64,000 bases of DNA, taken from Bacteroidota bacterium. GTDB taxonomy: Bacteria > Bacteroidota > Bacteroidia > UBA8524. The translations under genes and the position numbers were made by a program. Location: NCBI GenBank assembly GCA_008933805.1, contig WBUH01000004.1:186001-250000 (forward strand). Reading direction: 5' to 3'. Shown here in pieces: positions 27,383 to 27,608 of this stretch (positions are counted from its first letter, which is position 1; each line of letters starts with the position of its first letter). The notes under the pieces are model-generated. The model worked only from the letters and a program-made list of their open reading frames with translations. It ran no database searches and was not told where the DNA came from.

Positions 27383-27608
27383 TTCAAACAGTGTCGTAGA
27401 TAAGAGTTACTTCGACTGTTAATCGGGTGGTCGCGGGTTCGAGTCCCGTCGGGGCGACGTTATCCTGAACTTGTTTCAGGAACTCATAACTAAAAATTTT
27501 GGCAATGAGATTCCGACCTTCGTCGGCACAACTGCCAAACAAAACCATCGTCCCGTAGCTCAGTTGGATAGAGCACCATGTTCTCTTTTCGCTTTTTACC
27601 TGTTTGAA
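27383..27608 (+). ncRNA. Y RNA-like unit 2 with a circularly permuted Asn-type tRNA
   Basis: The closing helix TTCAAACAG/CTGTTTGAA is a perfect 9 bp. After the core GTGTCGTAGATAAGAGTTAC comes a complete anticodon arm TTCGA-CTGTTAA-TCGGG (GUU, Asn; 27411-27427). It is followed by a T-arm GCGGG-TTCGAGT-CCCGT and the 3' acceptor strand CGGGGCG (27450-27456). About 90 nt later come the 5' acceptor strand CGTCCCG (27549-27555) and a canonical D-arm GCTC-AGTTGGATA-GAGC. The acceptor strands pair over 7 bp with one G-U. Thus every arm of a tRNA is present but in 3'-half-then-5'-half order. The loop joining the acceptor strands contains the dispersed repeat at 27459-27526. Confidence 0.78.
27459..27526. 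repeat. Dispersed palindromic repeat inside unit 2
   Basis: GTTATCCTGAACTTGTTTCAGG at the left and a GATTCCGACCTTCGTCGGC element at the right, the same family as 27034-27106. It occupies the loop of the permuted acceptor stem, where an insertion would not disrupt pairing. Confidence 0.65.

Follow-up and report, generated by a model that had tools for sequence, protein, structure and literature searches.

Organisation of the locus

The window, which is the whole 64,000-nucleotide stretch of Bacteroidota DNA analysed here, carries the only gene for a TROVE (Ro60/Rsr-like) protein found in its genome and, 25 kb away, an array of about ten tandem units at 27242-28500 (Table 1). The two are this far apart because of the insertion of an element of approximately 24 kb, recognisable by its tyrosine integrase and by the 20-bp repeat at its ends, which also encodes an SRAP protein, a Y-family polymerase and a DnaE-like polymerase. 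A gene for a T4 Rnl1-like RNA ligase, assigned to its family by Pfam on this copy, lies 40 kb before the window. Small open reading frames without a Pfam match flank the array at 26486-26932 and 28503-28826; the former (148 aa) appears GIY-YIG-like by eye and, a Pfam match being absent, was assigned no role.

Every unit of the array opens with a conserved head resembling GTGCCGTnnnnAAGnnnTACTTCG. Allowing up to three mismatches, eight head matches fall in the window where 0.14 are expected, and all six exact copies of the pattern in the genome are within the array. The units are unequal, with both T and D arms in four, a T arm only in three (units 1, 3 and 6) and neither in three (units 4, 5 and 10); a regular expression recovers both arms in only three of them, unit 8 being the fourth, by eye. 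ARAGORN, and Rfam at gathering score, make no calls within the array. The initial annotation described unit 2 alone, and both its membership of a tandem array and the distant TROVE gene go beyond that description.

Table 1. Positions of the features in the window; units 1 to 10 are predicted Y RNAs, and R1 is the covariance model
Feature	Position	Strand	Basis or remark
TROVE (Ro60/Rsr-like) protein gene, 511 aa	730-2265	+	Pfam TROVE, E 1.7e-31
tRNA-Asp gene between TROVE gene and left attachment repeat	2371-2446	+	additional to the tRNA-Asp on contig C3
Integrase-bearing mobile element between TROVE gene and array	2585-26954	.	20-bp end repeats (2585-2604, 26935-26954) with a single mismatch
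Unit 1: T arm plus a hairpin like an anticodon arm; D arm not seen	27242-27374	+	head 27251; 9-bp lower stem
Unit 2: complete permuted cloverleaf on Y stem	27383-27608	+	R1 114.8 bits, outside training set
Unit 2, upper Y stem, 5' strand	27399-27406	+	pairs 27583-27590, 7/8; R1 alignment and sequence
Unit 2, anticodon arm, nt 29-43 (CGA CTGTTAA TCG GG)	27413-27427	+	sequence
Unit 2, T arm	27433-27449	+	sequence
Unit 2, acceptor 3' strand	27450-27456	+	sequence
Unit 2, acceptor loop, filled by dispersed repeat	27457-27548	+	9 genome matches to 27459-27540
Unit 2, acceptor 5' strand	27549-27555	+	sequence
Unit 2, D arm	27556-27574	+	followed by A26 (27575) and nt 27-28 (27576-27577)
Unit 2, lower Y stem, 3' strand	27600-27608	+	pairs 27383-27391, 9/9
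Unit 3: T arm only	27621-27722	+	head 27628; R1 55.9 bits; stems
Unit 4: short, without tRNA-like part	27733-27802	+	head 27739; R1 41.2 bits; stems
Unit 5: short, without tRNA-like part	27809-27874	+	head 27813; weak stems
Unit 6: T arm only	27910-28012	+	head 27920; R1 37.6 bits; 10-bp lower stem
Unit 7: T and D arms on either side of a 7-bp acceptor that has a 4-nt loop	28022-28157	+	R1 127.7 bits (in training set); Rfam YrlA 38.7 bits
Unit 8: T and D arms (both by eye) on either side of a weak closed acceptor	28168-28295	+	R1 68.1 bits; 7-bp lower stem
Unit 9: T arm, acceptor closed by TTCG tetraloop, D arm	28302-28430	+	R1 88.3 bits (in training set); 3' end set by hand
Unit 10: short, without tRNA-like part	28436-28500	+	head 28440; 8-bp upper stem

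A permuted cloverleaf in unit 2

Read from the sequence, unit 2 contains a full cloverleaf in permuted order, in which the anticodon arm, T arm and 3' acceptor strand precede the 5' acceptor strand and D arm. In this the initial annotation was correct, as it was in holding that all the arms are intact and that the acceptor strands, CGGGGCG and CGTCCCG, pair over 7 bp. The anticodon loop, CTGTTAA, occupies 27416-27422, and the whole unit is closed by a perfect 9-bp stem formed from its two ends, TTCAAACAG/CTGTTTGAA, whose outer positions, 27383 and 27608, coincide with the limits given in the initial annotation. The loop joining the acceptor strands is indeed filled by a dispersed repeat, as had been claimed: the segment 27459-27540 has nine matches in the genome including itself, with one more at 27035-27102 and the rest partial. 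The matching unit of a related genome (G050) has a short loop at this place, and the repeat is best regarded as a local insertion.

Unit 2 was found at 114.8 bits (E 1.3e-22) by a covariance model built without it, and units like it are present in other families, which together argue that the arrangement is more than chance. By single-sequence folding the cloverleaf is not the minimum-energy fold of unit 2 (z -2.04 for the whole unit), and when the insert is removed the target cloverleaf has -35.8 kcal/mol against a minimum of -43.3 kcal/mol. The check originally suggested, folding with and without the insert, does not single out the cloverleaf either way, and the case for the predicted structure is based on comparison, not on energy.

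A common structure supported by covariation

A total of 431 units was assembled from the window and its relatives, or 417 without identical ones. Where both arms are detected by regular expression (151 units), the T arm precedes the D arm in 144 and a D-like arm precedes the T arm in six. An acceptor spacer of 8-120 is found in 140 of the 144, and greedy removal at a similarity of 0.80 leaves 54 non-redundant permuted units. The spacer is 26 or less in 38 of these, of which 26 were used in the covariance model (R1) and 12, mainly of the Chryseobacterium group, were left out by eye. The training units comprise two from the window, two from genome G060 (as locus L008), one from locus L038 (a contig of genome G048) and 21 others.

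The architecture is shared by the tRNA-bearing units: a lower stem leads through a bulge and internal loop to an upper stem, beyond which comes a tRNA-like module with its parts in the order T arm, closed acceptor, D arm. Across the 26 aligned units, to which all the covariation counts apply, the five-helix structure pairs 95.0% of cells compared with 68.0% in shuffled alignments, cells changed on both sides number 221 against 67.7 in the shuffles, such changes occur in 27 of the 30 pairs, and versions of the structure slid along the alignment pair less than 50%. Helices 1 and 2 are paired in 98.1% and 91.8% of cells. RNAalifold, run on the same alignment, recovers these helices and, past a single bulged base, predicts two further pairs, one G-C and one Y-R. 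The letters of the tRNA loops are conserved in the aligned units. There are 39 G-U cells as against nine A-C cells, and the plus strand is therefore the RNA strand. When the upper stem is counted by its longest run, it is found in 44 of 54 units versus 52% of controls, a moderate excess; the strong count is the aligned one.

Acceptor pairing extends to the wider set, since at least six of the seven positions are paired in 35 of the 54 non-redundant units and in 7% of mispaired controls. At least five contiguous pairs are present in 34 of the 54, and in 24 of those 34 the enclosed loop is 8 nt or shorter. Several relatives close the acceptor with loops of 3-4 nt, and TTCG does so in window unit 9 and in a unit from a viral contig (L132). 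CCA follows the 3' acceptor strand in two of the 54.

Units with a complete anticodon arm

A complete anticodon arm is present in 17 of the 54 non-redundant permuted units and in 5.4% and 4.2% of controls; the test itself selects for pairing, so that weight falls on the controls and not on the pair counts. The arm consists of a seven-base loop on a five-pair stem, to which the head contributes three pairs and the bases after the D arm contribute two, which means that the Y stem enters the anticodon arm between nt 28 and 29. Among the 17, U33 is found in 16 and A26 in 15, neither of which was selected for, and the variable region has five bases in 16 (three to seven being allowed). R37 is present in 15 of the 17, although its share drops to 27 of 49 if redundant units are included. 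None of the five stem pairs is constant in kind. The arm is absent from the other 37 units of the 54. In five further units it is the D arm that is split, placing the break in the D loop.

The triplet itself is free, with 14 kinds among the 49 arm-bearing units, CAT (22), TTT (8) and GTT (6) leading. The label Asn-type given to unit 2 does not survive this comparison, and a conserved mimic of tRNA-Asn is ruled out by the varying triplet.

Linkage to TROVE genes

Seven of 100 related genomes, among them that of the window, match the head pattern, and on reading the matches four other genomes (G044, G048, G050 and G060) have real arrays; the matches in L009 and L012 are single and chance-like and were rejected. 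Two of these arrays, in G060 and G050, are flanked by a TROVE gene on one side and a T4 Rnl1-like RNA ligase gene on the other, and it is by this arrangement that the RNAs were recognised as Y RNAs. Scanning genome contigs with the TROVE proteins confirmed 342 relatives, the best 80 of which, 79 from Bacteroidota and one from a Limnohabitans MAG, were used as loci; some are judged to share a source with genomes above (L038 with G048, L041 with G050 and L071 with G044). Among these best 80 of 342, a head match lies downstream of TROVE on the same strand in 79, the sole exception being a 3.5 kb contig, and matches over the 80 loci number 416 on the plus strand versus 25 (counted from the list of matches) on the other. 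A boxA-like motif, GTTCTTTG/GTTCTTTA, is seen 21-32 nt before the first head in 10 of 79 loci (e.g., L038, L041, L093).

The same association is found at the level of the class, where TROVE occurs in 13 of 295 genomes. Full-length R1 matches with a best E of 1.9e-17 or lower are present in all 13 of these and in none of the other 282, the next genome standing at 4.4e-7, a result that is partly by construction in that training units overlap the surveyed genomes and further overlaps are possible. Weak matches (4.4e-7 or weaker) occur in 65 other genomes and mostly cover only model positions 39-117 or thereabouts; one genome (G001) has a single weak full-length match, in surroundings without a head motif. 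The T4 Rnl1-like ligase is an occasional partner: its family is found in eight of the 295 genomes, three of them with TROVE, is absent from ten of the 13 TROVE genomes, and lies within 6 kb of TROVE in six of the 80 loci.

At least three ARAGORN tRNA genes lie within about 6 kb either side of TROVE in 11 of the 80 loci. These loci (L024, L033, L035, L036, L052, L071, L084, L086, L090, L092 and L096) have from three to seventeen such genes each, nearly all on the same strand. The ARAGORN calls at L038 7945-8033 and L043 7605-7673 overlap Y RNA units and are likely miscalls. A pattern scan of viral sequences matched three contigs. Two (L132 and L133) carry a TROVE gene (47-48% identity) together with Y units, and the stretch of the third (L134) contains a single doubtful unit and no TROVE. 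By eye, the L132 unit with the TTCG-closed acceptor has a complete anticodon arm.

Interpretation of the array

Very probably the array is a set of about ten Y RNA genes whose products act together with the window's TROVE (Ro60/Rsr-like) protein, through predicted TROVE binding and tRNA mimicry, and which later insertions have altered. Three features of bacterial Y RNAs are found here, namely a gene encoded with a TROVE (Ro60/Rsr) protein, a stem formed from the two ends with a bulge or internal loop, and a permuted tRNA-like module in some members; binding by Ro60/Rsr and the ability to tether PNPase would be further ones. TROVE would bind the lower stem and internal loop, with the bulge and internal loop the putative protein site, and the closed tRNA-like module would be offered to tRNA-recognising proteins such as PNPase, modification enzymes or tRNA nucleases, acting as a tether, gate or decoy. 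The unit 2 RNA would be neither charged nor used in translation, and the repeat in its acceptor loop, like the 24 kb element, would be a later insertion. The original suspicion that unit 2 is a mimic more than a tRNA gene agrees well with its closed acceptor end, its Y stem and its partner TROVE gene.

That unit 2 is instead a genuine permuted tRNA-Asn gene, whose product is processed and rejoined into a usable tRNA, is highly improbable. Its intact arms and 7-bp acceptor are what such a gene would have, but the genome already has two ordinary tRNA-Asn(GTT) genes, so that no replacement is needed, the acceptor is often closed by 3-4 nt, and the two marks of a functional permuted tRNA, a CCA end and a conserved anticodon, are lacking among the units (CCA in two of 54, triplet free). 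Debris of tandem tRNA genes, with the decaying 3' half of one gene, a spacer and the 5' half of its neighbour, has slightly more to commend it though it too is very unlikely: the weak partial matches in 65 genomes mostly cover the stretch from T arm through spacer to D arm, as in neighbouring tRNA genes, and are presumed to be tandem tRNAs. Such debris may have been the origin of the mimics, yet it would account neither for covariation in stems that are absent from any tRNA nor for the strict linkage to TROVE. Tandem units of variable content are also expected of an array of cassettes at the DNA level, for example integron attC sites. This is scarcely credible given the excess of G-U pairs over A-C cells on one strand, the conserved tRNA loop letters and, again, the TROVE linkage.

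A further proposal concerns what the arm-bearing units are for. They could be baits or sensors for anticodon nucleases of phages, defence systems or rival bacteria, the locus being a tRNA-damage response unit with its ligase and spare tRNAs. We regard this as possible and rather unlikely. Among the arm-bearing units U33 (16/17) and R37 (15/17) are kept while the triplet is free, each of the five stem pairs varies in kind, additional tRNA genes are lined up beside 11 of 80 loci, a T4 Rnl1-like ligase is within 6 kb in six of 80, TROVE arrays occur on two viral contigs, and YrlA, the known bacterial Y RNA, has been suggested by the authors of PMC7790460 to be a competitive inhibitor of an anticodon nuclease. 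Against this, R37 falls to 27 of 49 with redundant units kept, 37 of 54 units have no arm, and the ligase is missing from ten of 13 TROVE genomes; moreover, PMC7790460 records that no YrlA fragments were detected, and a review lists only D, T and acceptor arms for YrlA and no anticodon arm (PMC8394870). Its broadest form is held just as tentatively: in Bacteroidota Y RNA arrays a complete tRNA, anticodon arm included, would have been grafted onto the Ro60-binding stem at different break points (28|29 in the anticodon stem, a point in the D loop, or the place that the anticodon arm would take), and the arm-bearing units would display varied anticodon loops as anticodon-nuclease decoys or sensors, in loci that also carry spare tRNA genes and, in some cases, an RNA ligase.

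Under the preferred reading as Y RNAs, the arrays bear on the purpose of the tRNA-like part in bacterial Y RNAs, the anticodon-arm family in particular on whether anticodon-reading enzymes are engaged. They supply natural variants, with the anticodon arm kept whole in some, numerous units in each genome and breaks at two or three different places, and they represent a class of RNA gene that ARAGORN and the Rfam thresholds mostly miss and in places miscall as tRNA.

Comparison with known systems

In the permuted tRNA genes of red algae and archaea the 3' half precedes the 5' half and the two are joined via the acceptor ends. The array differs from these in that there is no sign in it of processing to a usable tRNA, and in that its two ends are held by a Y stem. 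Two-piece tmRNA likewise has a permuted tRNA-like domain; it was rejected as an identity for the array, the best match to Rfam RF00023 reaching 12.5 bits against a cut-off of 47.

The closest known relative is YrlA (Rfam RF02553; Salmonella structure 6CU1), through which circular permutation of a bacterial Y RNA is already known. The Rfam YrlA model matches unit 7 at 38.7 bits (E 1.4e-6), with a second score of 20.0 bits; its cut-off of 69 bits is not reached in the window, nor in any of the loci of ten relatives. According to published work, bacterial Y RNA superposes on tRNA with a circular permutation (PMC11472068), YrlA is encoded beside a Ro60-like protein (PMC7790460), and its tRNA-like domain, which DusA and TruB modify, binds PNPase while its stem is for Rsr (PMC8394870). 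The array resembles YrlA, as there described, in its long stem formed from two ends, its permuted tRNA-like module with T, acceptor and D arms, and its neighbouring gene for a Ro60-like protein, and by analogy its RNAs may have the same general roles, with a stem for Rsr and a PNPase-binding, modified tRNA-like domain. The letters of the head and the internal loop differ, as does the partner ligase, which is T4 Rnl1-like in the array loci where one is present and RtcB for YrlA. Above all, each array has many units, and some of these have a complete anticodon arm; Y RNAs that keep this arm look to be new, as far as searches of open papers show.
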